The notes: a model not told the origin generated them from the sequence alone. A DNA stretch of 64,000 nt from Sphingopyxis sp. L1A2A (GCF_005502465.1 NZ_SCOT01000002.1:1-64000); one strand, 5' to 3'; positions 31,069 through 54,429 are shown, numbered from the stretch's first letter. Numbers and translations are program-made.

Positions 31069-31108
31069 GCCCCTGTGGTGAAATTGGTAGACGCGCCGCA
31101 CTCAAAAT
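31069..31108 (+). pseudogene. 5' half of a host tRNA-Leu, cut in the anticodon loop (element junction)
   Basis: GCCCCTGTGGTGAAATTGGT... has a tRNA-Leu acceptor strand, D-arm and the 5' anticodon stem (CCGCA) followed by the loop CTCAAAA with a CAA anticodon. The 3' part should continue TGCGG and later CAGGGGC, but instead element sequence follows (TGCGTTTAGCC...). The gene therefore breaks at or just after TCAAAAT, 31102-31108, the probable crossover core, next to the integrase gene. The 3' half is not seen in the window. Confidence 0.8.
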
Positions 31109-31184
31109 TGCGTTTAGCCTAAAAAAGTAAGCCAAAAACCACGCAAAACCAATAGTTTGAGCAAGGACGAGACCTCCAAAAAGA

Positions 31185-31204
31185 CTTACACATGTCTTAC
31201 ACAT
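31185..31204. promoter_or_regulatory. Direct repeat upstream of the integrase, possible arm or operator site
   Basis: CTTACACAT occurs at 31185-31193 and again at 31196-31204, an 11-base period of about one helical turn. It overlaps the small inverted repeat AAGAC...GTCTT. It lies 16 bases before the integrase start and between the crossover site and the gene, so it may bind the integrase or a repressor. Confidence 0.4.
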
Positions 31205-31219
31205 TTTGGAGTTCTCGCA

Positions 31220-32506
31220 ATGCCGACAGAAAGCCATCTGCTGATGGATGGGGCGCTGCACGTCTATCGGCGTGAGAACAGCCGCTACTGGCAATGCTCG
31301 ACCTATCTTGGCAGCCGCAACTACCGGCAGACGACCAAGGAGGTCAGCCTTGCTGCCGCCAAGGATTTCGCGCGCGACTGGTATATGGAGCGTTGCGTCG
31401 AGGATCGGCAACGCCGACGCGGTGGTGTTGCCTTGCTGGACGGCACCGTCCAGCCCCCGATCGCCGGAACCGGCGCGCCGACCGATGGTCGGCGTCGGCG
31501 AACGCCTACTGGCCCCAGCTTTAAGGATGCCGCAGACGCTTTCACCAGCGAGTTCGAGGTAATCACGCTGGGCGAACGCAACGCGGAATATGTGGCATCG
31601 AAGTCAGATCACATCCGCGTGCACCTGTTACCATTCTTTGGCGACACCGCGCTTGAGGACATAACGGCCGGCAAAGTGCAGGAGTATCGGGCGCACCGTC
31701 AGACATCGAGGGTCGATCCCAAAACCGGCAAGCCGAAGAAGCCAGCACGCGCGACCTTGCACGGCGAGATCGTCACGCTTCGGCAGGTTTTAAAAACCGC
31801 CAACCGTAAGGGCTGGATTGCGGCAATCCCGGATATGTCAGCGCCCTACAAGACGTCCGGCAAGGTGGAGCATCGCGCGTGGTTTTCGCCTGAGGAATAC
31901 AAGATGCTTTATGAGGCTACGCGCGAGCGGGCCAAGAACCCGCCGAAGCCGCGCTGGCGTGAAGTTTGCGAGACCTTCCACGATTATGTTCTGTTCATGG
32001 GCAACACCGGACTTCGGCCCGATGAGTCCGCTCGACTTGAGCTGCGGGACGTCAAGATCGTGAACGACGAGTCGACCGGCGAGCGCATCTTGGAGATCGA
32101 GGTGCGAGGCAAGCGCGGTGTCGGTTTCTGCAAGTCGATGCCCGGTGCGATCCTGCCCTTCGAGCGCGTTCGCAAGCGCAAGCAGCTCAAACCGACCGAC
32201 CGGATATTCGGGAAGTCGCCGCGCGAATTAATGAACACGGTTCTCGACGAGCTGAATCTGAAGTTCGACCGCGATGGCCACATCCGCACCTGCTACAGCC
32301 TGCGGCATACCTATATCTGTCTGCGCTTGCTCGAAGGGGCGGACATTTATCAGGTTGCCAAGAACTGCCGCACGAGTGTCGAAATGATCGAGAAGTTTTA
32401 CGGGCGCCATTTGAAGAACAACATCGACGCATCGGCCGTCAATGTTCGTAAGGCCAAGCCCCCGAAAGAGGCCGTCCGGAAGAAGACCGCGAAGCGAACG
32501 ACATAG
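31220..32506 (+). CDS. Tyrosine integrase of the element
   Basis: The 428-residue product has an N-terminal part (HVYRRENSRYWQCSTYLGSRNYRQTTKEVSL) like an AP2-type arm-binding domain. A core-binding domain follows at about residues 110-200 and a catalytic domain with GNTGLRPDESARLEL (first Arg), YSLRHTYICLRLLEGADIYQVA (second Arg) and EKFYGRH (Tyr nucleophile). In the usual His-x-x-Arg box the His is replaced by Tyr (YSLR). It should integrate and excise the element at the tRNA-Leu anticodon loop. ATG 31220 is chosen: GGAG lies eight bases upstream, and an earlier frame start overlaps the direct repeats. Confidence 0.88.
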   Translation: MPTESHLLMDGALHVYRRENSRYWQCSTYLGSRNYRQTTKEVSLAAAKDFARDWYMERCVEDRQRRRGGVALLDGTVQPPIAGTGAPTDGRRRRTPTGPSFKDAADAFTSEFEVITLGERNAEYVASKSDHIRVHLLPFFGDTALEDITAGKVQEYRAHRQTSRVDPKTGKPKKPARATLHGEIVTLRQVLKTANRKGWIAAIPDMSAPYKTSGKVEHRAWFSPEEYKMLYEATRERAKNPPKPRWREVCETFHDYVLFMGNTGLRPDESARLELRDVKIVNDESTGERILEIEVRGKRGVGFCKSMPGAILPFERVRKRKQLKPTDRIFGKSPRELMNTVLDELNLKFDRDGHIRTCYSLRHTYICLRLLEGADIYQVAKNCRTSVEMIEKFYGRHLKNNIDASAVNVRKAKPPKEAVRKKTAKRTT

Positions 32507-32566: not shown

Positions 32567-32651
32567 GCGGGCGTGGTGGAATTGGTAGACGCGCGGGATT
32601 CAAAATCCCGTTCCGCAAGGAGTGTGGGTTCGATTCCCACCGCCCGCACCA
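32567..32651 (+). tRNA. tRNA-Leu (anticodon CAA), carried by the element
   Basis: The 85-base gene folds as a complete class II tRNA. The acceptor GCGGGCG pairs with CGCCCGC, the anticodon stem is CGGGA/TCCCG with loop TTCAAAA (CAA), a long variable arm follows (TTCCGCAAGGAGT), the T-arm is GTGGG TTCGATT CCCAC, and CCA is encoded. Its acceptor does not match the split host gene at 31069 (GCCCCTG), so it is a separate gene and not the rebuilt host tRNA. It could replace the function lost by integration. Confidence 0.93.
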
Positions 32652-33669: not shown

Positions 33670-34773
33670 ATGCGCTGGAACTGGCAACTTCCCGACTGGC
33701 CCGATTTCCGCTTCGACGCGGACCGCATCAGTGTGTCGGAAGAGCAATTTCTGAAAGGGGCCGGTGTCGTCATTGGGGCGTTGCATCACCTCGACACCGA
33801 TGGGCGCGATGGTCTGACCATCGAACTCATTTCGCAGGAGATCGTGGATAGCTCTGCCATCGAGGGCGAAATTCTCGACCGCGCGAGCGTCCAGTCGTCA
33901 CTCGCAAGGCATCTGGGCTTTGCCGCCGATCAGCGCCGCGCCAGTGCGGCCGAGGCCGGTGCCGCCGAACTCATGGCCGATGTCTATCGCAACCATGCCG
34001 CGCCGCTTGATGACCAGACTCTGTTCGCGTGGCACGCCATGCTGATGAACGGTCGCCGCGATATTGCTGATGTCGGGCACTACCGGACGCATGAAGACGC
34101 CATGCAGATCGTCTCGGGCGCGCTTCACGCGCCGCGCGTGCATTTCGAGGCACCGCCATCCGATACCGTTCCTGCGGAAATGGCCCGGTTCATCGTGTGG
34201 TTCAACGATAGCGCGCCATCGGGAGCGGCTCCGCTTCCGGCGATCACCCGCGCCGCGATCTCGCACTTGTGGTTTGAGAGCATCCATCCCTTTGAAGACG
34301 GAAATGGCCGGATCGGACGCGCGATTTCGGAAAAGACATTGGCCCAAAACGTTGCTGCTCCGACGCTGACGGCACTCGCGGAAACGATCAATCGCCACCG
34401 CAAAGCCTACTACGCCGCGCTTCAGCTCGGAAGCCAGAGCAACGACATCGACGCCTGGCTGACATGGTTTGCCGATATTGTCATCGAGGCGCAGGCGCGA
34501 ACGATCACCCGCATCCGCTTCCTGATCGACAAGACCCGGCTGCTCGATCGCTTGCGCGGGCAAATCAACGAACGTCAGGAAATGGCGTTGCTTCGCCTGT
34601 TCCGTGAGGGACCGGACGGATTCGAGGGCGGGTTGAGCGCCGGGAATTACCGGACGATCACCGGGGCGGCGCTTGCAACTGCGACCCGCGATCTTGCCGA
34701 TCTTGTGGAGAAAGGTGCGCTGATCCGCACCGGTGAACGCCGCTATGCTCGCTACTTTCTTACGAGCAGCTAG
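33670..34773 (+). CDS. Fic family protein with N-terminal DUF4172-like domain
   Basis: The 367-residue product carries the full Fic motif HPFEDGNGRIGR with catalytic His206, the hallmark of enzymes that transfer AMP (or other nucleotides) to hydroxyl groups of proteins. Upstream, VDSSAIEGE matches the (S/T)xxxE(G/N) inhibitory helix, so activity should be self-restrained (class II). The N-terminus (MRWNWQLPDWPDFRFDADRI) is the DUF4172-type segment, and the C-terminal ~90 residues look like a winged helix (LRLFREGPDGFEGGLSAGNYRTITG...TATRDLADLVEKGAL). It precedes the defence operon by 149 bases. A link to phage defence is unproven. Confidence 0.9.
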   Translation: MRWNWQLPDWPDFRFDADRISVSEEQFLKGAGVVIGALHHLDTDGRDGLTIELISQEIVDSSAIEGEILDRASVQSSLARHLGFAADQRRASAAEAGAAELMADVYRNHAAPLDDQTLFAWHAMLMNGRRDIADVGHYRTHEDAMQIVSGALHAPRVHFEAPPSDTVPAEMARFIVWFNDSAPSGAAPLPAITRAAISHLWFESIHPFEDGNGRIGRAISEKTLAQNVAAPTLTALAETINRHRKAYYAALQLGSQSNDIDAWLTWFADIVIEAQARTITRIRFLIDKTRLLDRLRGQINERQEMALLRLFREGPDGFEGGLSAGNYRTITGAALATATRDLADLVEKGALIRTGERRYARYFLTSS

Positions 34774-34922: not shown

Positions 34923-37697
34923 ATGAATGCTGTAGAAATTGAGGAAGCAGTATCGGAACTTGCAAGCAAGCCCTTTGATCGGGCCGATTTCGCGTATCAA
35001 TTCTTAGCCGCCTTTGGGAACAAGGAGACCACCATAAAGCGCCTTCGCGCTGCGGGTGGCTCCAACGCCTCTGATGTTCCTGGCGGCATTCTTCAGCGTA
35101 ACAACATTCACTTGGCGGCGTGCGCGACGGGTGAGGTTGATGCGACGTTGAAGGCGTTGCGCGACAGTCCGAAAACGGCGTCAGCCAAGGCCAAGTTCAT
35201 CCTCGCCACCGATGGCGAGACGCTACAGGCGGAGGACGTCACCAGCGACGATCCGCCCATCGCGTGCGAATATGCCAAGTTTCCCGATCACTTCGGATTC
35301 TTCCTGCCGCTGGCGGGCATCACCACCGTCAAGCAAATCCGCGAAAGCTCATTCGACATTCGCGCCACGGGGCGGCTCAACAAGCTCTATGTCGAGCTGC
35401 TGAAAGACAATCCCGAATGGGCGACCGCCGAACGCCGACCGGACATGAACCATTTTATGGCGCGGCTGATCTTCTGCTTTTTCGCGGAGGATACCGACAT
35501 CTTCAATGGCACCGGCCTGTTTACGGCAGAGGTGCAGAAAATGTCCGAGGCGGACAGCTCGAACACGCACGAGGTCATCAGCCACATATTCCTGGCGATG
35601 AATACGCCAACGCGACATGAGGGGAAGCCTGATAACCGCTATCGGGAAGCGGCGGGAATCCGTTTGTGGGCCAACCGATTTCCGTATGTGAACGGTGGGC
35701 TGTTTTCGGGCAGCACCGAGGTTCCGCGTTTCAGCAAGATCGCGCGATCCTATTTGATCAACATCGGTAGTCTCGACTGGAAAAAGATCAACCCCGACAT
35801 TTTTGGCAGCATGATTCAGGCCGTTGCCGATGACGAGGAGCGGGGCGCACTTGGTATGCACTACACCAGTGTGCCGAATATTTTGAAGGTTCTGAACCCG
35901 TTGTTCCTCGATGACCTGCGCGGGGCATTGGAGGAGGCGGGCGACAATGGGCGTAAGCTGCTCAATCTTCGCAACCGCATGGCGAAAATCCGGGTGTTCG
36001 ATCCGGCTTGTGGCAGCGGCAATTTCCTCGTGATCGCTTACAAGGAAATGCGCGCGATCGAGGCGGTGATCAACCAGCGCCGCAATGAGGAAGAGCGACG
36101 CAGCGACATTCCGCTCACCAATTTTCGCGGCATCGAGCTGCGTGATTTCCCGGCAGAGATTGCGCGCCTTGCGCTGATCATCGCCGAATATCAGTGCGAC
36201 GTGACCTATCGCGGCCAGAAAGAAGCGCTGGCCGAACTGCTCCCGCTGAATGCGCAGAATTGGATCACTTGCGGCAATGCGCTGCGGCTAGACTGGTTGA
36301 GCATCTGCCCGCCGACCGGCACCGGCGTGAAGATTCACGGCGATGATTTGTTCAACACCCCGCTCGATCAGGTCCAGATTGATTTCGAGAACGAAGGCGG
36401 GGAAACTTACATCTGTGGAAATCCTCCGTTCAAAGGCACGCGCAAGCAAGCCGACGAGGAAAAGCGCGATCTAAACGAGGTCTTTTCAAGCCAAACGAGC
36501 AAGTGGAAAAATGTCGATTATGTAGGCGCATGGTTGATGAAGGCAGCAATCTACAATGATTCCTGCGCCGCTCCATTCGCCTTCGTAACCACCAATAGTC
36601 TCTGTCAGGGGCAGCAGGTTCCGATCACTTGGTCACTGATTTTGAAGCGCGGGTTACGAATACGGTTTGCCCATACGTCGTTCAAATGGTCCAATTTGGC
36701 TGCTAACAAGGCGGGGGTGACTGTCGTGGTCACCGGGGTTGATCGCGAACAAGGCGGCATCCGTCGAATCTACGCGGACGAGAGCGTCCGCGAGGTCGCG
36801 AACATCAATCCATATTTGACAGACCATGACATTTCCGTCGTGTCTGCCGAGAAGCGGCCTCGCGCGACAAACGTGTCAATGGAATATGGTGTTTACTACT
36901 CCAAATCGGCCGGACTGATGCTTGAATCGGCAGAAAAGACGGCGTTGCTTGCGGCCGGAGTTCCGAGCCGCTTCCTCCGGCGATTTATCGGCTCGACGGA
37001 ATACATAAACGGTAGAGAACGTTTTTGCCTTTGGATCGGTGACGACGATGTTGGGGAAATTTGCCAATTTCCTGTGGTCCGTGAACGTATCCAGAGCGTC
37101 AAGCGGGACCGGACTGAAACCGACGACGAAGCCGTCAATAAGCTTGCTGCCAAGCCTCACCAATTTCGAGAGCGCAAAGGTGGCGAAGCGTTCAAGATTT
37201 TCGTTCCGATCGTCTCATCCGAGAATCGAGAGTATTTTCCTGCCGGCGTTGCTGATGGATCTGTCATTCCAACGAACAAGGCCTTCTATATTCCTGACGG
37301 CCCGCTCTGGTCTCTCGCCGTTATCGCATCCAAAATTCACCTTGCTTGGATTGATACGATTTGTGGACGACTGCGGAATGATTTTTCATACTCGAATACG
37401 TTGGGCTGGAACACATTCCCAATTCCAACTCTGACCGAGCAAAACAAGGCTGACCTCATCCGTTGCGCGGAGGACATTCTACTTGCTCGTGAGCATTATT
37501 TCCCAGCCACCATTGCTGAGATGTATGACCCCAAGCGCATGGACTCCGAGTTTCCCCGCGTCCGCGCTGCACATGAAGCAAACGATGAGGTGCTTGAACG
37601 CATTTTTATCGGACGGCGCTTCAGGAACGATACGGAGCGGTTGGAAAAGCTGTTCGAGCTTTACACCAAGATGGCTGCGAAGGGGAAAGCGGCGTGA
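34923..37697 (+). CDS. MmeI-like class I DNA methyltransferase, first gene of the defence operon
   Basis: The 924-residue product has the MmeI-family layout. An N-terminal domain (LAACATGEVDATLKALRDSP, KFILATDGETLQAEDV), a helical spacer (FPDHFGFFLPLAGI, FMARLIFCFFAEDTDIF), and a gamma-class amino-methyltransferase core follow in order: Asp360 in VFDPACGSGNFLVIAYKEMR binds SAM and Asn500 in CGNPPF is catalytic. A target recognition domain lies at about 620-820 and a final helical part after it. MmeI itself has an N-terminal D...EXK nuclease; no such motif is clear here, so the protein probably only methylates adenine. Its stop overlaps the GTG of the next gene, which encodes a nuclease. Confidence 0.87.
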   Translation: MNAVEIEEAVSELASKPFDRADFAYQFLAAFGNKETTIKRLRAAGGSNASDVPGGILQRNNIHLAACATGEVDATLKALRDSPKTASAKAKFILATDGETLQAEDVTSDDPPIACEYAKFPDHFGFFLPLAGITTVKQIRESSFDIRATGRLNKLYVELLKDNPEWATAERRPDMNHFMARLIFCFFAEDTDIFNGTGLFTAEVQKMSEADSSNTHEVISHIFLAMNTPTRHEGKPDNRYREAAGIRLWANRFPYVNGGLFSGSTEVPRFSKIARSYLINIGSLDWKKINPDIFGSMIQAVADDEERGALGMHYTSVPNILKVLNPLFLDDLRGALEEAGDNGRKLLNLRNRMAKIRVFDPACGSGNFLVIAYKEMRAIEAVINQRRNEEERRSDIPLTNFRGIELRDFPAEIARLALIIAEYQCDVTYRGQKEALAELLPLNAQNWITCGNALRLDWLSICPPTGTGVKIHGDDLFNTPLDQVQIDFENEGGETYICGNPPFKGTRKQADEEKRDLNEVFSSQTSKWKNVDYVGAWLMKAAIYNDSCAAPFAFVTTNSLCQGQQVPITWSLILKRGLRIRFAHTSFKWSNLAANKAGVTVVVTGVDREQGGIRRIYADESVREVANINPYLTDHDISVVSAEKRPRATNVSMEYGVYYSKSAGLMLESAEKTALLAAGVPSRFLRRFIGSTEYINGRERFCLWIGDDDVGEICQFPVVRERIQSVKRDRTETDDEAVNKLAAKPHQFRERKGGEAFKIFVPIVSSENREYFPAGVADGSVIPTNKAFYIPDGPLWSLAVIASKIHLAWIDTICGRLRNDFSYSNTLGWNTFPIPTLTEQNKADLIRCAEDILLAREHYFPATIAEMYDPKRMDSEFPRVRAAHEANDEVLERIFIGRRFRNDTERLEKLFELYTKMAAKGKAA

Positions 37698-38998
37698 CCG
37701 AGGCAGTCACGCAATTTCCATCTACCGAGGAGCTTGAGAGCCTGTTCGTAAACAACGAATCTATGGCGAAGATCGAAACTCACCTTAATCGCTTCAATCC
37801 GATCAGGGTTATGAAAATGGAACGGATGGAAATCCGTCATTCGGCGATATTGAGCTGGCTTTTGAACCCGGGCGAAAGTCACGGGCTTGATGACAAATTT
37901 TTGAAAGCCTTCTTGGGTGAGGCATTGCGCGGACATAGCTCGCTTGGGTCTCCTACTGCGCTAGACATTGCACGAGCCGACTTGCGGGATTCGACCGTTC
38001 GTCTTGAATGGCAGAATATCGACATTTTCATCTACAGCGAGAAGAACGCCTGGGGATTTGTGATTGAGAACAAATTCGACAGTAAGCAGCACGAAGGGCA
38101 GTTGGCCAAATATCTGGACAGCGTTTCTGCGGGCTTGGGAAAGTTGGCGGATGATCTATCTGTCAGGGGAATATTTCTAACTCTGCATGATGAAGAGCCA
38201 GAAGATGCGCGCTACGCGCCGATAAACTATGAGGCAATTTGCCAATTTTTGCCGAGGTTCATCGGCCAAGAAGCTCATCTACTGACGGCAGAGGTGAGGA
38301 CATTCTTACAGCATTACAACGAAATTATCGCGGAGGAGGTCGGCATGAGCGCCGAGAGCAATGAGATGGAAAAGCTGGCTAGGCAGCTTTACCGCGAGAA
38401 CAAGAAGGCGCTGGACTTCATCATGGAGCATGGTGCGGGGTCAGATTTCGCCATTGCGGCTGAAGACGTTTTTGGCGACGGTCGGGATCATCTCGATGTC
38501 ATCGAGATTGACGGGCATAAATATCGATTCTGCCATTTGGACCATAAAATGGTCAGTTTTCTTCCCGAAAGCTGGTTTTTGGCGCTTGGAAAAGACGAGT
38601 ATGACTGGAAGGGCTGCGAGCAGTGGTGGTCAGGATACCCGCTGATTTCATGGCTTCAACTTTGGGCTGATGCCGACGGGACATCGGGGCAGTTAGGCTT
38701 GTATGGCGAGGTCGGTCCGCTGAAGGAGTATGAATTCAGAAGCAGTCTAATCAACGCAATTCAGAGCGCCGGAGAGAACCTGCCTAAAAATCGTATAAAG
38801 TTTCATAAGGCCGCTGCCGACGAAGGCAAGCAATACTCGAAATTCCTGAAAGAGAACTTTCTGAAAATCAAAGATGTGCAGGATGCAGAAGAGATTGCTG
38901 AAGGTATGAAGAAACTTCTCCAACGGTTCCAACCGGAATTTGACGGAATAGGCAGTATTCTGACCGAATTCAAAAAATATGGCTATGTTGACAAATGA
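37694..38998 (+). CDS. PD-(D/E)XK nuclease family protein
   Basis: The 434-residue product has a PD-(D/E)XK core of the PDDEXK_4 type: EIRHSAILSWLLNPGESHGLDDKFLKAFL, then Asp110 in NIDIFIY, Glu125-Asn-Lys127 in VIENKFDSKQHEGQLAKYLD and the conserved Gln after it. The C-terminal half (about 230-434) is mixed alpha/beta with no recognised domain. It should cut or nick DNA; target choice may come from the methyltransferase or helicase. The GTG start overlaps the upstream stop (GTGA) and its stop overlaps the next ATG (ATGA). Confidence 0.83.
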   Translation: MTEAVTQFPSTEELESLFVNNESMAKIETHLNRFNPIRVMKMERMEIRHSAILSWLLNPGESHGLDDKFLKAFLGEALRGHSSLGSPTALDIARADLRDSTVRLEWQNIDIFIYSEKNAWGFVIENKFDSKQHEGQLAKYLDSVSAGLGKLADDLSVRGIFLTLHDEEPEDARYAPINYEAICQFLPRFIGQEAHLLTAEVRTFLQHYNEIIAEEVGMSAESNEMEKLARQLYRENKKALDFIMEHGAGSDFAIAAEDVFGDGRDHLDVIEIDGHKYRFCHLDHKMVSFLPESWFLALGKDEYDWKGCEQWWSGYPLISWLQLWADADGTSGQLGLYGEVGPLKEYEFRSSLINAIQSAGENLPKNRIKFHKAAADEGKQYSKFLKENFLKIKDVQDAEEIAEGMKKLLQRFQPEFDGIGSILTEFKKYGYVDK

Positions 38999-41121
38999 CG
39001 ACTTCTAAACCCATCCCCGCAGTGTCATTCCAGACCGCGCGCACCGGGGCATCGGCCAAACCCAATGAAATGGGTATGCGCCAGATGCAGGAGCGTGCCT
39101 ATGCCAAGCGCGGCGAGCAATATTTGCTGATCAAATCGCCGCCCGCATCGGGCAAGTCGCGCGCGTTAATGTTCATCGCGCTCGACAAGCTCCACAATCA
39201 GGGCGTCAAACAGGCAATCATCGTCGTGCCGGAAAAGAGCATCGGCGGCAGCTTTGCCGATGAGCCGCTTTCAAAGTTCGGTTTCTGGGCTGACTGGACG
39301 GTCAAGCCGCAATGGAATCTGTGCAACGCACCTGGCCCCGATGAAGAACGCGTTGATCCATCCAAGGTGCGCGCCGTTGGGCAGTTCCTCGCCAGCGATG
39401 ACAAGGTGCTGGTTTGCACCCATGCGTCTTTCCGCTTTGCGGTTGAGCAGCTTGGTATCGAGGCGTTTGACAACCGCCTGATCGCGGTGGACGAGTTCCA
39501 CCATGTTTCCGCGAGCGCCGACAACAAGCTAGGCAGCCAGCTTGGCGACTTCATCCACCGCGACAAGGTGCATCTTGTCGCCATGACCGGCAGCTATTTC
39601 CGGGGCGACGCCGTTCCCGTCTTGATGCCCGAAGATGAGGCGAAATTCGAGACTGTAACCTACACCTATTACGAGCAGCTCAACGGCTATGAGTATCTGA
39701 AATCGCTCAATATCGGCTATTTTTTCTACACGGGCCGCTATCTGGGCGCGATAGAGGCCGTGCTTGATCCATCGCGCAAAACCATCGTGCATATTCCTTC
39801 GGTCAATTCGCGCGAAAGCACGAAGGACAAGATCAAGGAAGTCGAAGAGATCATGGAGTATCTCGGTGACTGGAAGGGTGCCGATCCCGTGACCGGCTTC
39901 CATCTGGTCGAGCTGCCCGCCGATGAAAATGGGAACGTCCGCACGGTCAAGATCGCCGATCTCGTGGACGACAGCGATCAGGTAAAGCGCACGAAGGTTC
40001 TGGCGGCTCTGAAAGATCCGGCGCACAAGAATGACCGCGACCATGTGGATATCATCATCGCGCTTGGCATGGCAAAGGAAGGCTTCGACTGGATTTGGTG
40101 CGAACATGCGCTGACCGTGGGCTATCGCTCCAGCCTGACCGAGATCATTCAAATTATCGGTCGTGCCACCCGCGATGCGCCGGGCAAGGAAGTGGCGAGC
40201 TTCACAAATCTGATCGCGGAACCCGATGCGTCCGAAGCCGCCGTGGTCGACGCGATCAATGACACGCTCAAAGCCATCGCGGCGAGCTTGCTCATGGAGC
40301 AGGTGCTGGCGCCGCGTTTCAATTTCACCCCGAAAGACCACGGACCGCTGCCTGACTTCAAATATGAAGGCGGGTATCAGGAAGGGCAAACGAACGTAGG
40401 TTTCAACGAAGAACGCGGACAGTTCCATTTCGAGATCAAAGGACTTGTGACGCCCAAGAGTCCCGAGGCAACCCGCATTTGCGCTGAAGATTTGAACGAG
40501 GTTATCACCGCGTTCGTGCAGGATAAGTCCGCTCTTGAGCGCGGTTTGTTCGATGGTGCGCACGTTGGCGGCGAAACATTGGCGGAAGAACTGACCCAGC
40601 TAAAAATGGGTAAGATCGTGCGGGATCGTTACCCTGAATTATCAGGTGAAGATCAGGAAGCGGTGCGGCAGCACGCCGTCGCGGCGTTGAACCTGACCCA
40701 GAAGGCCAAGCAGCTTGCGGGCAGCGGTGATACTGGAGCAGGCCACATTGATGATGGGGAGGCCCGGTCCAATACAGCGTTGATCGAGGGCGTTCGCAAA
40801 TTTGCGATTGAGGTGAAAGACCTCGATATTGACCTGATCGACAGGATCAATCCGTTTGAGGCAGCCTATTCTGTTCTCGCCAAGGCGATGAACGAGGGGA
40901 CGTTGAAGCAGGTTGCCGCTGTGATCGGCAAGCGCAAGGTCAGCATCCCCTACGAGGAAGCCCGCGACCTGGCGGTCCGCGCGTTGCAGTGGAAAAAGGA
41001 ACGTGGGCGCGCTCCTGAGATCACTTCGCAAGATCCTTGGGAAAAGCGCCTTGCCGAAGGCGTTGCCGCCCTCGCGAAATTCCGCGCGCAGCAGAATGCT
41101 CAAGAGTCTGACAATGGTTGA
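38995..41121 (+). CDS. DEAD/DEAH-box helicase (superfamily 2)
   Basis: The 708-residue product has SF2 helicase motifs: Walker A in IKSPPASGKSRA (Lys54), motif II VDEFHHV (Asp166), motif III-like MTGSY, and motif VI QIIGRATRD. The layout resembles the motor subunits of type I/III restriction enzymes but lacks a nuclease domain of its own. About 250 C-terminal residues are probably a partner-binding part. Together with the PD-(D/E)XK protein it could form a translocating nuclease. The ATG overlaps the upstream stop. Confidence 0.88.
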   Translation: MTTSKPIPAVSFQTARTGASAKPNEMGMRQMQERAYAKRGEQYLLIKSPPASGKSRALMFIALDKLHNQGVKQAIIVVPEKSIGGSFADEPLSKFGFWADWTVKPQWNLCNAPGPDEERVDPSKVRAVGQFLASDDKVLVCTHASFRFAVEQLGIEAFDNRLIAVDEFHHVSASADNKLGSQLGDFIHRDKVHLVAMTGSYFRGDAVPVLMPEDEAKFETVTYTYYEQLNGYEYLKSLNIGYFFYTGRYLGAIEAVLDPSRKTIVHIPSVNSRESTKDKIKEVEEIMEYLGDWKGADPVTGFHLVELPADENGNVRTVKIADLVDDSDQVKRTKVLAALKDPAHKNDRDHVDIIIALGMAKEGFDWIWCEHALTVGYRSSLTEIIQIIGRATRDAPGKEVASFTNLIAEPDASEAAVVDAINDTLKAIAASLLMEQVLAPRFNFTPKDHGPLPDFKYEGGYQEGQTNVGFNEERGQFHFEIKGLVTPKSPEATRICAEDLNEVITAFVQDKSALERGLFDGAHVGGETLAEELTQLKMGKIVRDRYPELSGEDQEAVRQHAVAALNLTQKAKQLAGSGDTGAGHIDDGEARSNTALIEGVRKFAIEVKDLDIDLIDRINPFEAAYSVLAKAMNEGTLKQVAAVIGKRKVSIPYEEARDLAVRALQWKKERGRAPEITSQDPWEKRLAEGVAALAKFRAQQNAQESDNG

Positions 41122-42328
41122 TCTGTCCGACGACGAATTGCTCGCCGAACTTGGTGTTAGCGTCGAGCAACAGGCTGCACGCGCCTATACTCCGCAGCAG
41201 GAGCGGATCATCGCGGGCTTTGAGGACATTCTCAAATTCCACGATGCGCATGGTCGAGCGCCGCAGCACGGTGAGCAGCGCGACATATTCGAGCGACTTT
41301 ATGCAGTGAGGCTCGATCGCCTGCGCGAGCTGGAGGATTGCCGTTCGCTGTTGGCAGGCTTTGACAAGCATGGTTTGCTGAAGGTGAACTCGGATGCCAG
41401 CCACATCGTTCCCGATGAGCTGGATGATGATGCGTTGCTTGCTGAACTCGGCATTGATCCTGGCGGTGATGATGACATCACGCAGCTTCGCCATGTGCAA
41501 ACACGGGAAGAAAGGCAGGCCGCCGAAGAGATTGCCAACCGTGAACGCTGCATCGATTTTGCGAAATTTCAGCCGCTGTTTGCCGATGTGCAGCTCGACC
41601 TTGATTCCGGCGTTCGCAGCACCCGCCCTTTCGTAAAGGACGCCGGATTTCTGAAAGCCGACATTGGCACGGGCCAATTTTTCATCCTGGGCGGCCAGAC
41701 AGCCTATGTGGCTGAGGTTGGCGAGACCATTAAGGCCCCAAATGGCGAGTTCGACGCCCGTTTAAGGGTCATCTATTCCAATGGGACGGAGAGCAACCTG
41801 TTGCGCCGCTCCCTGCAACGCGCGCTTTACAAGGATGACGCAGGGCGGCGCATTACCGATCCAGCGGCGGGGCCGCTCTTCTCTGACAATGCGGGCAAAG
41901 ACGACACCGAAAGCGGGACCATCTATGTCTTGCGGAGCAAGTCCGACCATCCCCAGATCGCCAAGCACCGTGACCTGATCCACAAGATCGGCGTGACGGG
42001 TGGCAGTGTTACGACGCGCATTGCGGCAGCGGAGAACGACGCGACCTATCTGCTGGCCGGCGTCGAGATCATCGCCGAATACAAGCTGTTCAACATCAAC
42101 CGGACGAAGCTGGAAAAGCTGATCCACCGATTTTTCGCTGATGCCGCATACGACATCCAAATTACTGATCGCTTTGGTAGGCCTGTGCGACCCCGCGAGT
42201 GGTTTCTCGTCCCGCTCTATGCGATCGATGAGGCTGTTGAACGAATACGAGACGGATCGATTGCGCTGTATATGTATGACCCAAAACACGCACGTTTGGT
42301 TCAGCGAGAATTAGGCGCGCAAGCCTGA
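41114..42328 (+). CDS. GIY-YIG nuclease family protein (T5orf172/MUG113-like domain)
   Basis: The 404-residue product starts in the last codons of the helicase gene (eight-base overlap). The N-terminal half is acidic and helical with repeated SDDELLAELG and DDDALLAELG segments. The C-terminal part GTIYVLRSKSDHPQIAKHRDLIHKIGVT (Tyr271, then the IG pair), AEYKLFNINRTKLEKLIHRFF and the DRFGRPVRPREWFLV tail match the T5orf172/MUG113 variant of GIY-YIG nucleases. It is probably a DNA nickase or nuclease. Its stop and the drt3a ATG share one base (TGATG). Confidence 0.83.
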   Translation: MVDLSDDELLAELGVSVEQQAARAYTPQQERIIAGFEDILKFHDAHGRAPQHGEQRDIFERLYAVRLDRLRELEDCRSLLAGFDKHGLLKVNSDASHIVPDELDDDALLAELGIDPGGDDDITQLRHVQTREERQAAEEIANRERCIDFAKFQPLFADVQLDLDSGVRSTRPFVKDAGFLKADIGTGQFFILGGQTAYVAEVGETIKAPNGEFDARLRVIYSNGTESNLLRRSLQRALYKDDAGRRITDPAAGPLFSDNAGKDDTESGTIYVLRSKSDHPQIAKHRDLIHKIGVTGGSVTTRIAAAENDATYLLAGVEIIAEYKLFNINRTKLEKLIHRFFADAAYDIQITDRFGRPVRPREWFLVPLYAIDEAVERIRDGSIALYMYDPKHARLVQRELGAQA

Positions 42329-43674
42329 TGCTCGATCAAATGTTCACCGCGGAAAACTTCCGTCGTATTTATGATTCAGAGAATCGCAAAGGCCTTGATC
42401 TGGCCACTCGCTACTTCCCGGATCTCGAACCGCACACGCTCGCTGTGCGCGACAAGGTGCAGGATATTCGTGATCTGCGCAAAATCGAAATTACGCTGAC
42501 GGCAGATGATTTCGAGGCACAGCTGCTCGCCTTGAAAGGCGAGCTAGCAGTCTTGAAGATAGCAAAATCATCTGCGGTTGATGCACTGATGGAGGAGATC
42601 AGCCAAAAGGTTCTCAAGCGAACCTTCAAGATCGACCTGTCGCAGAAGGTCGGGCCACAGGGAAAGCCGGTCTACTGCATCGATGCGGAGCCCGAGACGT
42701 TCTTCGTCATCAAGCAGCTCCAGCGAAACATCCACCGCATCTACGGTGTGAAACAGGCGAACCGCCACGACTTGGTGTGCCAGCTTCGGGACATGCTCGG
42801 CAGCAGCTTTCCTTTCGAGCTGGTTCGCACTGACATTTCGTCGTTCTATGAGAGCGTCGACCGCAAGCAGCTGGTGGAGAAACTGGACCAGGACCAGCTT
42901 CTGAGTCCGGCGTCGAAGAAATACATCAAGCAAGTGCTGGATTCTTACGGCGCGATTTCCGGCACCGCGATCGGCATCCCCCGTGGTGTAGGTATCAGCG
43001 CCTATCTGGCCGAGCTTTATCTGCGTCCCGTCGACAAAGCGATCAGGGCAATTCCCGGCCTCGTCCTCTATTGCCGATTCGTCGATGACATCGTGGCCGT
43101 GTTCGCACGACCGCCCGCAGGTAAAAGCCTTGGTTCATTCAAAGACCTGATCATTGCGATTTTCGTCGAAAATGCGCTCACACACAACGCCGCAAAAACC
43201 GCAGAATTCAAGCTCCCGGACACGGCTTCCCAGGAGTTCGAGTATCTGGGTTATCGCTTTACGTGCATCGGCGATAAGTTCGCGGTTTCTCCGAGCGTTG
43301 CAAAGGTGGAAAAATATCGTGCGCGAATGAATGTCTCGTTTGACGACTATTGGCACGAGCGTCCGGTGAACCCAAAAGGGGCTTTTCGCAAGCTGGTCGG
43401 ACGGGTCAAGTTTTTGACTGGTAACACTCGGCTTGCCAACAGCAAGTCCCGTGCGGTTACGGGCATCTATTACAACAACTCAATCGTGACCGACCTGTCG
43501 GATTTTGAACAGCTCGATAAGGAGCTGAAAGTCCTCGTCACAGCGACGAAGCGCACGACCCTGCAAAAGCAGTTGAAGAAGCTCAAATTCACTACCGGCT
43601 TCGTGCAACGCCGGTATCACAATTTCAGTACGAGAGAGTTGCAGATGATCGTGAGGGCCTGGAAGCATGGCTAA
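42328..43674 (+). CDS. drt3a: Antiviral reverse transcriptase Drt3a-like (UG3)
   Basis: The 448-residue product is a reverse transcriptase: motif A VRTDISSFYESVD with Asp169, motif B GIPRGVGISAYLAELYL, and motif C YCRFVDDIVAVF with Asp253-Asp254. The ~100 N-terminal and ~130 C-terminal residues do not match retron or group II intron domains. The pairing with a second, larger reverse transcriptase fits DRT type 3 (UG3 plus UG8), a phage defence system that makes DNA with an associated RNA. In reported DRT3 systems Drt3a copies an ACACAC tract in the RNA to poly(GT). It is coupled to the upstream and downstream genes. Confidence 0.83.
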   Translation: MLDQMFTAENFRRIYDSENRKGLDLATRYFPDLEPHTLAVRDKVQDIRDLRKIEITLTADDFEAQLLALKGELAVLKIAKSSAVDALMEEISQKVLKRTFKIDLSQKVGPQGKPVYCIDAEPETFFVIKQLQRNIHRIYGVKQANRHDLVCQLRDMLGSSFPFELVRTDISSFYESVDRKQLVEKLDQDQLLSPASKKYIKQVLDSYGAISGTAIGIPRGVGISAYLAELYLRPVDKAIRAIPGLVLYCRFVDDIVAVFARPPAGKSLGSFKDLIIAIFVENALTHNAAKTAEFKLPDTASQEFEYLGYRFTCIGDKFAVSPSVAKVEKYRARMNVSFDDYWHERPVNPKGAFRKLVGRVKFLTGNTRLANSKSRAVTGIYYNNSIVTDLSDFEQLDKELKVLVTATKRTTLQKQLKKLKFTTGFVQRRYHNFSTRELQMIVRAWKHG

Positions 43675-45739
43675 GCGGCGCGTCTCTCTCACGCACCGAA
43701 AGCAGCGTTCTGTCCTCACCGACATGCTGCCTTTCGAGGTGCCGCCGACTTTTTCCAACCGGGGCTATTACCGGTTTCTGCGAGACAACAGTGTCGAGAT
43801 TGAAAATGGCCATTTGCGCTGGATCAGCAAAACCGACGTCCTTGATCGTACAATGCGCCTTCTGTTCGGAGTTTTGCCCAGCGCAGGGATCGCGGAAGAG
43901 ACCCTGACCGAATGGGGCAAGGAAAAAACCCGCAGGTTCGTGCCCCTCAACAAATGCCAGATGGCGACGATCCCTTTCAATTTCCGGGTCGCGCACAATC
44001 TCGACGGGCGCACGTTGAGCGTCGTGCATCCGCGCAATCAGGTTGCGGTAGCGAGCTTTTACGCCACCCACAGCGCGCTCATCATTTATCACACGTCGGT
44101 CAGCGAGTTTTCGATCCGCCGACCGGTGTCGGTGTCTCGCTACGCCTACTTCAAGGACAAACTCCACGAAGAGCGGCTGGATTCCGTGGCGGGTGTGGAG
44201 GAGGAGGACCGGGAGTACGAGCAGCTCGGCTCCTATTTCGTGTACCGGAAATACCGAAACATCCATCGCTTTTTCGAATCCTACAAATATCACCGCAGCG
44301 AGAAAAAATACGACGCGATGGTGCAGATCGACGTGAGTAAGTGCTTCGACAGCATCTACACCCACTCGCTGCCTTGGGCCGTTTTAGGCAAGGACCAGAC
44401 AAAGTTCAGCCTCGAAGAATCGAAGGGCACTTTCGGCGGACACTTCGACGCCCTCATGCAGGGCCTGAATCATAAAGAGACCAATGGCATTGTGATCGGT
44501 CCCGAGTTTTCACGGATTTTTGCCGAGATCATTTTGCAATCGGTCGATGCCGAGCTGATCAAACAGTTGGCCGAAGGGGCCAACCTGAAACACAAGGTCG
44601 ATTACGAGATTTTCAGGTACGTCGATGACTTCTTCGTTTTCTACAACGAGGAGTCGACCCAGCTAAAGATTTTCGAGACGCTCCAGGAAATCCTCAAGGG
44701 CAGGAAGCTCAGCATCAACACGGCGAAGATCAAGCACTACCAGAAGCCGATCATCACCGAGATCACGGTCGCGAAAGAGCGCGTCTCGATGCTGCTGAAC
44801 GACGAGATCAATCCGGTTTGCGAGGAGGAGCCGCCGGCCGATCCGGCCAAGCCGCCGAAACAGAAGCTCGTGTGCGGCATCAACGCGAACCGGCTGATCA
44901 TTCGTTACAAAGCCGCCATCAAGGAGACAGGCGTCACCTATGGCGACCTGCTAAATTACACATTCGCGATTATCGAAAACAAGGTCGAGAAGCTATTCAA
45001 GGCCTTTGTTGCGAGCGACAAGTCAGACCGCGACCGTAAGCGTCTCTCCAATGCGTTGCTGGCGATCTTGGAGTTTGCCTTCTTCGCCTATTCGGCGAGC
45101 CCGAAGGTTAATCACACCATCCGCATTTGTCGGATGATCGCGACCTCTGTGGACTTCCTGCACGCCCAGAATTTACCCTACGAACAGAAGCACCTGCTGT
45201 TCAAGTATGTCCACGACAACGTGATGCAGCAGCTTGAAAAGAACACGATGAGCGTCCATCGCGAGGTCGAAAGCCTCTATCTGCTCATCTCGCTCTCGCA
45301 GATCGGTCGCGAATATTGGATGCCGGTCTCCGTGCTGCTCCGACACTTTCTGATCACGGAGGAGGAGGGCACGGGGGACTACATACGTCCTACCGGGTTC
45401 ATGAACCATTTTTCGGTCACGATCCTACTGTCCTATATAAAGGACAAGGTCAGGTATGCGAAGCTGAAAACCTTCATCGAGGGGCATATCATCGCCAAAC
45501 TCGAATACATGAAGGCCCATTGTCCGAACGACGCCGAAACGCTTATCATGCTGCTCGATCTCGTCGTATGTCCTTACATCAGTGCCACCACCAAGAATGC
45601 CATAGGACTCATTTTCGGACTGGACGCGGTGGGTCTCGCGTCAGTCAAATCCGCAAACGATCACTGGTTCACTGCCTGGGGCGATAAGTTCGATCTCGGC
45701 AAGGAGCTGGACGCGAAGCGCAGTCGTGAGGTATACTGA
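43667..45739 (+). CDS. drt3b: Antiviral reverse transcriptase Drt3b-like (UG8)
   Basis: The 690-residue product starts inside the end of drt3a (eight-base overlap). Motif A is QIDVSKCFDSIYTHSL with Asp222, motif B GIVIGPEFSRIFAEIIL and motif C FRYVDDFFVFY with Asp320-Asp321, so the polymerase centre is intact. A long helical C-terminal region (about 400-690) follows, as in the larger partner of DRT3. In reported DRT3 this protein makes the complementary poly(AC) strand without a nucleic acid template. The candidate non-coding RNA lies right after its stop codon. Confidence 0.83.
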   Translation: MAKRRVSLTHRKQRSVLTDMLPFEVPPTFSNRGYYRFLRDNSVEIENGHLRWISKTDVLDRTMRLLFGVLPSAGIAEETLTEWGKEKTRRFVPLNKCQMATIPFNFRVAHNLDGRTLSVVHPRNQVAVASFYATHSALIIYHTSVSEFSIRRPVSVSRYAYFKDKLHEERLDSVAGVEEEDREYEQLGSYFVYRKYRNIHRFFESYKYHRSEKKYDAMVQIDVSKCFDSIYTHSLPWAVLGKDQTKFSLEESKGTFGGHFDALMQGLNHKETNGIVIGPEFSRIFAEIILQSVDAELIKQLAEGANLKHKVDYEIFRYVDDFFVFYNEESTQLKIFETLQEILKGRKLSINTAKIKHYQKPIITEITVAKERVSMLLNDEINPVCEEEPPADPAKPPKQKLVCGINANRLIIRYKAAIKETGVTYGDLLNYTFAIIENKVEKLFKAFVASDKSDRDRKRLSNALLAILEFAFFAYSASPKVNHTIRICRMIATSVDFLHAQNLPYEQKHLLFKYVHDNVMQQLEKNTMSVHREVESLYLLISLSQIGREYWMPVSVLLRHFLITEEEGTGDYIRPTGFMNHFSVTILLSYIKDKVRYAKLKTFIEGHIIAKLEYMKAHCPNDAETLIMLLDLVVCPYISATTKNAIGLIFGLDAVGLASVKSANDHWFTAWGDKFDLGKELDAKRSREVY

Positions 45740-45744
45740 CTCCG

Positions 45745-45895
45745 GCGCTCCGCTTTACCCTTAATGGCTGTTGGCAGCCTACACACAAGCGCCCTCTCTT
45801 CCCCTATATCAATTGGGGGTTGGGTAATTGGGCGGTAGGAGCGGGCCGTCCCACCCAAAACTGGCAGGATAGATGAAATCTTTTTGGTCAGTGGA
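45745..45895 (+). ncRNA. Candidate DRT3 non-coding RNA with ACACA template bulge
   Basis: This non-coding stretch follows drt3b. CCTAC (45778-45782) can pair with GTAGG (45835-45839) and CGCCC (45790-45794) with GGGCG (45830-45834). On the right strand the two stems are contiguous; on the left they are split by ACACAAG (45783-45789), leaving the template-like tract as a bulge. A hairpin GCTG-TTGG-CAGC precedes it, and CCAAAA...TTTTGG (45855-45887) could close the 3' end near a T-run. The ACACAC template reported for DRT3 RNA fits. The ends are guesses, and the fold was made by eye. Confidence 0.6.
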
Positions 45896-52752: not shown

Positions 52753-54429
52753 ATGTCGAAGGAAATGGTTCTCCGGAATGGGAATGTCGCCGGCATACCG
52801 GCGGCGCAGTACATTCGCATGTCTACTGAGCATCAGCGATATTCTCCTGACAATCAAAAAGCCGCTATCGCATCGTTCGCCGACGCGCGCGGATTTGAGG
52901 TCGTTAAAACCTATCTCGACGCGGGCAAAAGCGGTCTCTCTCTTGCGAGGCGCGATGGCCTGAAACAACTGCTCAGCGATGTCATCTCGGGAGAGATCAA
53001 CTTTCGTGCTATTTTGGTTCTCGACGTTAGTCGCTGGGGTAGGTTTCAGGACACTGACCAAGCGGCGCATTACGAATATCTGTGCCGCGAAGCGGGAGTA
53101 CAACTCCACTACTGCGCGGAATCATTCGAGAATGACGGCGGCGCCATCTCGTCGATCGTCAAACATATGAAGCGAGTCATGGCGGCAGAATATAGCCGCG
53201 ATCTCTCCGCTCGCATTTCGCGTGCCCAACGGCAGCAGGCTAAGCTCGGTTTCAAGATGGGCGGAATGGCTCCGTACGGCACCCGGCGCCAAGTGGTCGA
53301 CGAAAGCGGAAAGCGTCGAATGACGTTGAAGCCCCGCCAGCGAAAGGCGCTCAGCACTGATAAAGTAATCTACGCCTTGGGACCGCCGGCCGAGGTCGAA
53401 GTGGTGGAGAGGGTTTTTCGCGACTACGCGATCCGCAGAAAGAAAATGACCGAGATCGCGCGTTGGCTCAACGACGAGAAGCGCAAGCATCCGATGCGCG
53501 AGATTTGGACACCCGACATCGTGCGATGCATGCTGAAGAACGAAATATACATCGGCACCCTTGTCTTCGGCCGCCGCTATATGAACCTCGGTCGCACTAT
53601 TAGGTTCGACGAGAAGGACTGGATCAGGGTCGCAGTGGTCCAGCCCGCCGTGTCGGTTCAACTCTTCGAAGCCGCGGCGCGGCGATTGAAGCGCTCCGCA
53701 GCCTCCAAGAGGCCGTTATCGATGCAGGAACTTACTGAGGGGTTGGCTCGCCTATATGAGGAAAAAGGGAAGCTATCCCACGCGATCATAACGAAATGTC
53801 GCTACCTCCCTGTGCCGTCCGTTTTTGCCCGCCGGTTCGGATCGCTCGAAGCAGCCTATACCGCGGTAGGTTTTACTCCGCAGCGTCATTTTCAGATCAA
53901 CGAGGCTGGCCTGCCATTCAGCGACGAAGAGCTGCTTGATCAGATCCGGAGAATCCACCGCGAGCAAGGTCGGCTCACCATCGACCTCATAGACAAAGAC
54001 CCTTTGGTACCGAGCCGCTCGTACTTTATCGCACGCTTTGGCGGTTTTCGAAACATTGTCCGCCTCGCTGGCTTGCCAATACCGCCGCGGTCGCAGCGCG
54101 ACGTGGCAGGAGAGGCAAGGCAGCGCGCCCTTTATGAAACGAAGGCAAACCGAAAGGCGCCCTGTAGCCGGAACGAGGATGGTAAGAAGTTCACCAACGA
54201 GCAGATAGTCAGCAAACTTAAGTCGCTGCTTGCTGAGAAGGGATATTTGTCGCGCCCTTTGATCAATGCGGATGGTCGCGTACCGATGAGCCATGCGGTT
54301 GCACTCAGGTTCAACGGGATGCTCAATGCGTACGCCGCTGCAGGATACTATTCGACGCAGAGTCAGGTTAACAAGGCGGCGATGGCGCGCGCGATGGGAA
54401 CATGGGTCTCGCCATTTTTACGATCATGA
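52753..54429 (+). CDS. Large serine recombinase 1
   Basis: The 558-residue product has a resolvase domain (AAQYIRMSTEHQRYSPDNQ with nucleophile Ser24; LVLDVSRWGRF; ARISRAQRQQAKLGFKMGG) and a recombinase domain (EIARWLNDEKRKHPMREIWTPDIVRCMLKNEIYIG). The C-terminus then carries three repeats of ~50 residues, each ending like RFGSLEAAYTAVGF, RFGGFRNIVRLAGL and RFNGMLNAYAAAGY. These look like homing-endonuclease-associated repeats rather than the usual zinc-ribbon/coiled-coil part. GGAGG precedes the ATG. It is paired with a paralogue 52 bases downstream. Confidence 0.87.
   Translation: MSKEMVLRNGNVAGIPAAQYIRMSTEHQRYSPDNQKAAIASFADARGFEVVKTYLDAGKSGLSLARRDGLKQLLSDVISGEINFRAILVLDVSRWGRFQDTDQAAHYEYLCREAGVQLHYCAESFENDGGAISSIVKHMKRVMAAEYSRDLSARISRAQRQQAKLGFKMGGMAPYGTRRQVVDESGKRRMTLKPRQRKALSTDKVIYALGPPAEVEVVERVFRDYAIRRKKMTEIARWLNDEKRKHPMREIWTPDIVRCMLKNEIYIGTLVFGRRYMNLGRTIRFDEKDWIRVAVVQPAVSVQLFEAAARRLKRSAASKRPLSMQELTEGLARLYEEKGKLSHAIITKCRYLPVPSVFARRFGSLEAAYTAVGFTPQRHFQINEAGLPFSDEELLDQIRRIHREQGRLTIDLIDKDPLVPSRSYFIARFGGFRNIVRLAGLPIPPRSQRDVAGEARQRALYETKANRKAPCSRNEDGKKFTNEQIVSKLKSLLAEKGYLSRPLINADGRVPMSHAVALRFNGMLNAYAAAGYYSTQSQVNKAAMARAMGTWVSPFLRS

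Follow-up and report, generated by a model that had tools for sequence, protein, structure and literature searches.

YeeABC restriction-like genes and a DRT3 reverse transcriptase pair in one gene run on an integrated element of Sphingopyxis sp. L1A2A

Genes of the run and their carrier element

The window analysed here is a stretch of 64,000 nucleotides from Sphingopyxis sp. L1A2A (GCF_005502465.1, NZ_SCOT01000002.1:1-64000), in which positions 34923-45739 hold six ORFs, all on the plus strand and with all frames open, that fall into a restriction-like module of four genes and a reverse transcriptase module of two (Table 1). The initial annotation, made from the DNA alone, had described six co-directional genes over this span, had named their families, including Drt3a and Drt3b, and had reported that all five junctions overlap; each of these points was confirmed, the families by Pfam and PADLOC matches and, for Drt3a and Drt3b, NCBIfam matches above the cut-offs, and the overlaps exactly as written. 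The methyltransferase and PDDEXK_4 genes overlap by 4 nt (GTGA), as do the PDDEXK_4 and helicase genes (ATGA), while the overlap is 8 nt between the helicase and GIY-YIG genes (ATGGTTGA) and again between drt3a and drt3b (ATGGCTAA). Because both 8-nt overlaps are internal to their own modules, where they are seen again in relatives, the 1-nt junction between the GIY-YIG gene and drt3a is the informative one, and the idea that all five overlaps prove the coupling of the modules was rejected. The accompanying claims, that the reverse transcriptases are translated as part of the operon and that no room is left for other promoters, go further than the overlaps allow; promoters inside coding DNA are compatible with overlap. 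A scan of the region for sigma-70 type promoters returned 5 sites against 5.9 expected from shuffles, and terminator-like sites were fewer than in shuffles.

Table 1. Features of the integrated element and of the six-gene run, in window coordinates.
Feature	Position	Strand	Basis or remark
attL core, 15 bp, CGCCGCACTCAAAAT	31094-31108	+	partner attR on contig C22, 80901-80915, outside the window
Tyrosine-type integrase of the element	31157-32506	+	weak Pfam SAM-domain hits only
Intact tRNA-Leu(CAA) brought by the element, replacing the split host copy	32567-32651	+	adjoins the integrase
YeeA/DnmA-like MmeI-family adenine methyltransferase, 924 aa	34923-37697	+	profile search, motifs, subgroup in PMC7261158
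PDDEXK_4 nuclease gene (PADLOC PDC-S26), optional accessory between methyltransferase and helicase	37694-38998	+	profiles, motif
YeeB-like superfamily 2 helicase, 708 aa	38995-41121	+	profiles; motifs SPPASGKS, DEFH, QIIGRATR
YeeC-like T5orf172/GIY-YIG protein, 404 aa	41114-42328	+	profile search
TGATG junction of GIY-YIG gene and drt3a, 1-nt overlap, sole link between both modules	42326-42330	+	
DRT3 cassette	42328-45856	+	DNA homology to stand-alone loci L027 and L028
Drt3a reverse transcriptase, 448 aa	42328-43674	+	NCBIfam, PADLOC; catalytic FVDD 251-254
Drt3b reverse transcriptase, 690 aa	43667-45739	+	NCBIfam, PADLOC; YVDD 318-321, E24, R283, C-terminal Y690
DRT3 ncRNA	45740-45857	+	conserved block ~45744-45853; ACACAC template 45781-45786

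The run is part of the cargo of an integrated element of ~49.8 kb, which, with relaxase and type IV secretion genes at 51-62 kb, looks conjugative. At the 15-bp core the host tRNA-Leu(CAA) is cut in its anticodon region, and the two flanks, on the 31094 side and at 80901-80946 of contig C22, rejoin to an intact tRNA. Between the integrase and the operon lie genes for a second GIY-YIG protein (PF20815, 32894-33466) and a SoFic-like Fic protein (33670-34773); a Fic gene is also found upstream of DRT3 in locus L062. At 52753-54429 and 54482-56167, two adjacent serine recombinases each carry a C-terminal homing-endonuclease-associated HNH repeat.

In the methyltransferase, a profile search recovered the MmeI MTase, TRD, N, helical-spacer and C domains, and the motifs DPACGSGNF and NPPF are intact, as are the active-site motifs of the helicase, Drt3a (FVDD) and Drt3b (YVDD). 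The methyltransferase, TRD, helical-spacer and C-terminal domains align with those of MmeI (type IIL, PDB 5hr4), but the N-terminal PD-(D/E)XK of MmeI has no counterpart: the first 165 residues contain no such motif (pattern D-x(7-14)-(D/E)-x-K), which agrees with what had been noted initially. The locus is therefore not a type IIL (MmeI) restriction-modification system, with nuclease and methyltransferase in one polypeptide, and nuclease functions would come from separate genes. Downstream of the methyltransferase, the PDDEXK_4 protein has a candidate catalytic stretch, D110...ENK, the helicase matches DEAD/ResIII profiles and the GIY-YIG gene product matches T5orf172/MUG113. A nuclease-less MmeI-like methyltransferase followed by a helicase and then by a T5orf172/GIY-YIG gene is the gene order of DnmA-YeeB-YeeC in Bacillus subtilis and of its homologues in Vibrio crassostreae, and on their sequences the first four genes are assigned to this restriction-like module ("YeeABC"), with the PD-(D/E)XK gene as an optional extra. 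B. subtilis DnmA(YeeA) is likewise an MmeI homologue without a nuclease motif and has yeeB and yeeC alongside (PMC7261158); in contrast to that locus, the window has the additional PDDEXK_4 gene between YeeA and YeeB, and DRT3 behind YeeC. No restriction of phage or of DNA uptake by DnmA-YeeB-YeeC was seen in B. subtilis (PMC7261158, PMC9973331), and in V. crassostreae deletions of the homologues led to higher sensitivity to some phages (PMC9973331).

Among YeeABC loci, what stands between methyltransferase and helicase varies: the slot is empty or holds RhuM, SLFN_AlbA_2, a weak T5orf172 match, other genes or PDDEXK_4. Homologues of the PDDEXK_4 gene occupy it in L136 (53%) and L166 (67%), and of 35 other YeeABC loci 2 have the gene, while the nine others that are linked to DRT3 all lack it. 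It was therefore rejected as a core part and, although the neighbouring nucleases were initially seen as likely partners of the methyltransferase, is treated here as an accessory. Variable too is the position behind YeeC, where loci that are not linked to DRT3 have AAA_13/PDC-S06 (L169), Mrr_N-AAA_5 (L136) or SMC/Ppl-like (L171) genes and, farther behind, GajA-like (L174) or UvrD (L143) genes, which suggests that the tail of the operon is a general docking site for diverse defence genes.

The last two genes, adjacent drt3a (UG3) and drt3b (UG8), are recognised as genuine members of their families by the NCBIfam equivalogs, with scores of 408 bits for Drt3a (cut-off 200) and 722.6 bits for Drt3b (cut-off 350), and by the PADLOC Drt3a and Drt3b models. 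DRT3 of Escherichia coli depends on three parts, Drt3a, Drt3b and an ncRNA encoded downstream; poly(dTdG) arises from the ACACAC template of this RNA, and poly(dCdA) is the product of Drt3b, which uses Y666 as primer and E22 and R241 as guides (PMC13174585). The products are under the control of RecBCD, the phage RecBCD inhibitor Gam leads to growth arrest, and the system is toxic without RecBCD (PMC13174585). The window shares with E. coli DRT3 (PDB 9z6y, 26cz) both reverse transcriptases above the cut-offs with FVDD and YVDD, the gating residues and C-terminal tyrosine of Drt3b, and the ACACAC template in an ncRNA that lies downstream. In Drt3b of the window, E24, R283, YVDD and Y690 sit at places corresponding to the E. 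coli residues, the equivalence of E24, R283 and Y690 to E22, R241 and Y666 being one of position and conservation; the glutamate and arginine of the gate do not vary across 81 Drt3b sequences, and every one of the 78 that extend to the tyrosine column has that residue. Two features set the window apart from E. coli DRT3: DRT3 here shares 1 nt at its 5' end with a restriction-like operon and lacks the leader motif described below, and the host has AddAB, not RecBCD. Profile searches found AddA in the host and no RecB above the cut-off.

The ncRNA had been overlooked in the initial parts list, which gave the reverse transcriptase pair correctly. Its ACACAC template begins 42 nt past the drt3b stop, and the same hexamer occurs within 350 nt after that stop in 77 of the 79 other loci with DNA there (L057 and L103 are without it, and L053 has no DNA at this place). 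A common fold of 33 sequences has 28 pairs, 11 of them with two-sided changes, and the covariance model R1 built on it recovered 25 loci outside the training set, including the YeeABC-linked L065, L069, L071, L080 and L094; the score of 134 bits for the window is not independent, because the window belonged to the training set. A search of Rfam gave no matching DRT3 family, the sole match being a tRNA, and the search for DRT3 homologues in phage records gave weak partial reverse transcriptase matches only.

Recurrence and repeated assembly of the pairing

A Drt3b alignment scan over 84,980 species genomes yielded 80 loci besides the window, ~65 of which have at least 3 kb of upstream DNA. Nine of the 80 have YeeABC upstream of drt3a with order and strand as in the window, namely those from Sphingopyxis (L026), Alcaligenaceae (L036), Pseudomonas mendocina (L044), Spongiibacteraceae (L065), Henriciella (L069), Sneathiella (L071), Flavobacteriaceae (L080), Rhodovulum (L094) and Flavobacterium gawalongense (L096), so that the pairing occurs in both Proteobacteria and Bacteroidota. 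Chance adjacency in one genome was accordingly rejected as the whole story, and the initial proviso, that the two sets of genes might almost never co-occur elsewhere, does not apply. Spacings between the GIY-YIG gene and drt3a are mostly tight (-8, -8, -8, -8, +5 and +23 in composites, -1 in the window), and in L044 and L096 other genes lie between YeeABC and DRT3. YeeB-like helicases are common on plasmids (264 records) and are present in 4.4-5.5% of genomes (17 of 385 in the class, 22 of 398 in the phylum), and DRT3 is rare, with 5 of 385 and 2 of 398, the window's included. If YeeB were merely present anywhere at a frequency of 5.5%, at least 9 of 65 loci would be reached with a probability of 0.009; adjacency with order and strand would have far lower odds by chance, and the loci are not independent of one another.

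The association is one-sided. Restriction genes were found within 3 kb of DRT3 upstream and co-directional in 14 of 65 loci and downstream in 1 of 66, counts from a query set that leaned to upstream finds and that were hence followed by a Pfam recount of large flanking ORFs at 46 DRT3 loci. In the recount T5orf172 tops the upstream families (7), and the 25 commonest families downstream, which are those listed, include no restriction family. Other restriction genes that stand directly upstream of DRT3 on the same strand are of type I (L033, L041, L086 and L099), type III with a 3-nt gap (L062), IIG (L078) and ISP (L088).

Most DRT3 loci nevertheless stand alone, including ones that are 85-90% identical, and DRT3 follows YeeABC in none of the 35 YeeABC loci from the genome samples and in none of four plasmid loci. 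Either partner is more often found without the other, and the system is not an obligate one. A fixed composite, in which the partners are nearly always together, was thereby discarded, and of the composite system suggested at the outset it is the recurrent pairing that stands, with nine cases among 80 DRT3 loci and, on the trees of both partners, roughly nine label changes apiece, and the obligate character that falls. No description of the pairing was found in the open-access literature, most subscription papers and preprints being outside the scope of the search; the operon joins two known systems that have come together independently several times.

The YeeABC label requires approximately nine changes when placed on a tree of 81 Drt3b sequences, and the DRT3 label approximately nine, for ten rows, on one of 49 YeeB helicases. 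The window and L026 are 91% identical in Drt3b, 71% in the helicase and 63% in the methyltransferase, and the Drt3b proteins of L027 and L028, which have no YeeABC, are 89-90% identical to that of the window. The label changes on both trees, together with the discordant identities of the partners, argue for repeated independent assembly, and a single ancient fusion inherited ever since was rejected on the same grounds. The pairing has evidently also been retained in one clade, that of L069, L071 and L094, in which divergence is similar across the helicase, the GIY-YIG protein and both reverse transcriptases and all three loci have an 8-nt overlap of the GIY-YIG gene and drt3a. Both L069 and L071 come from metagenome bins and are 94% identical in DNA here; shared transfer or a binning error is possible. 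Within this clade, L072 has a relic of ~100 nt of the GIY-YIG 3' end followed by an intact DRT3, and YeeABC has therefore been lost there; a DUF2779 gene (L072, 6698-8185) lies where it was. Between L069 and L071 the helicase, Drt3a and Drt3b are 98-99% identical and the methyltransferase just 75%, as if target specificity had been swapped in an otherwise constant operon.

The window is homologous in DNA to the stand-alone L027 and L028 from the drt3a ATG to 117 nt past the drt3b stop, and with such sharp borders DRT3 behaves like a cassette. A 15-nt motif close to AATCAAATGGAATGA precedes drt3a, at -25 to -11, in most of the stand-alone DRT3 loci of the closest clade; L036 and L044, whose linkage is loose, still have it, and the window and L026, whose linkage is tight, do not (shuffle p 0.64 and 0.85). 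This suggests that the leader was lost in these two tight composites of the closest clade; the result is suggestive only, because the motif was found and scored on one small set (leave-one-out for members) and some stand-alone DRT3 loci also lack it.

A possible two-layer defence and competing explanations

The explanation we prefer, with chances of being right and wrong that we consider to be evenly balanced, is that the locus is a two-layer defence operon on an integrative conjugative element, combining restriction with a suicide layer that guards a host nuclease. It builds on what was established directly, namely gene content, order and overlaps, catalytic residues, the ncRNA, the cassette borders, repeated assembly and the apparent loss of the stand-alone leader, and it would further require restriction activity of the YeeABC module, co-expression and synergy. 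In the first layer, adenine methylation by YeeA would mark host DNA, and unmarked DNA would be attacked by the YeeB helicase and the YeeC GIY-YIG protein, here aided by the PD-(D/E)XK nuclease. The second layer would be the complete DRT3 cassette docked at the 3' end of the operon and expressed through read-through, with Drt3a producing poly(dTdG) on the ACACAC template and Drt3b producing poly(dCdA). The resulting duplex would be cleared by a host exonuclease, which is RecBCD in E. coli and presumably AddAB here; AddAB would need to take the role of RecBCD because of the AddA and RecB search results given above. If a phage blocked the exonuclease, the duplex would build up and the cell would be arrested. 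The two layers might thus be complementary: restriction would make DNA ends, the exonuclease would complete the destruction, and a phage inhibitor that protects ends would trip DRT3. Counted in favour are the presence of YeeABC upstream of 9 of 80 DRT3 loci, against 4.4-5.5% of genomes with YeeB, the completeness of both modules by family and active-site tests, the covarying ncRNA, the repeated assembly, the mostly tight junctions, the missing leader motif in the tight composites, the other restriction systems that stand directly ahead of DRT3, and the AddA of the host. Counted against are the optional nature of the pairing for both partners, the acceptance of AAA_13, GajA and Mrr_N-AAA_5 at the YeeC tail, which may be a generic docking site, and the lack of restriction by DnmA-YeeB-YeeC in B. 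subtilis (PMC7261158, PMC9973331).

The main rival, which we rank below the two-layer operon while granting it a substantial share of the probability, is hitch-hiking in a defence island, whereby independent systems share a promoter and DRT3 gains instant expression behind a strong constitutive restriction operon with no synergy. It would account readily for the other defence genes in the same tail position, for DRT3 behind type I, III, IIG and ISP restriction genes, for an association gained and lost repeatedly, and for the intact DRT3 that outlived YeeABC in L072. The upstream bias of restriction genes, however, exceeds what simple clustering would give, even if the queries leaned upstream, as does the standing of YeeABC as the top upstream family; and the co-inheritance of the modules with a conserved 8-nt junction in L069, L071 and L094 also counts against it. 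Closer coupling is imagined in a model after PrrC, in which the restriction complex would physically restrain DRT3, and a phage anti-restriction protein, by disabling that complex, would set DRT3 free. There is a formal parallel in prrC, which lies inside the type IC operon EcoprrI (PMC3874165, PMC2610378), and in L169 the tail position behind YeeC is taken by an AAA_13 protein of the PrrC/RloC type. EcoprrI resembles the window in that a suicide effector gene, there for an anticodon nuclease, sits within a restriction operon as a second layer (PMC3874165), but the type of restriction and the chemistry of the effector differ, and silencing of DRT3 by the restriction complex is unsupported. We regard such restraint as improbable, given that most DRT3 loci function with no YeeABC nearby, that E. 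coli DRT3 is restrained by RecBCD with no restriction partner (PMC13174585), that a dedicated interaction domain was not found in DRT3 of the composite loci, and that a stand-alone Drt3b shares 90% identity with the one in the window. Least credible of all, to a degree that hardly competes, is that one or both modules are decayed or non-functional relics; the B. subtilis relatives of YeeABC do look inactive (PMC9973331), but the six open frames, the intact catalytic motifs and the conservation of the Drt3b priming and gating residues and of the ncRNA template all point the other way.

Beyond this locus, the two-layer operon may be an instance of a wider pattern, which we put forward tentatively and at a probability short of even: the 3' docking position would be recurrent in restriction operons, DRT3 would have been recruited repeatedly as a guard of the exonuclease that completes restriction, and in the tight cases it would have given up its leader and come to depend on the restriction operon for expression, forming a true cooperative system. 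DRT3 has so far been studied as a stand-alone system, and the role of YeeABC is disputed. Independent pairings in distant bacteria indicate which other defence suits DRT3 and suggest that the layers work well together, and the pairing offers a concrete test of whether DRT3 guards the RecBCD/AddAB step that finishes restricted phage DNA. The prediction is that the 3' ends of restriction operons are good places to seek unknown suicide effectors.

Among the genes that flank DRT3, DUF2779 (PF11074) is the top downstream family, with 5 ORFs at the 46 loci of the Pfam count, and is found upstream as well (2). ArdC-type antirestriction genes lie downstream of YeeABC-DRT3 in three composites, L026, L069 and L094, as assigned from alignment identities.
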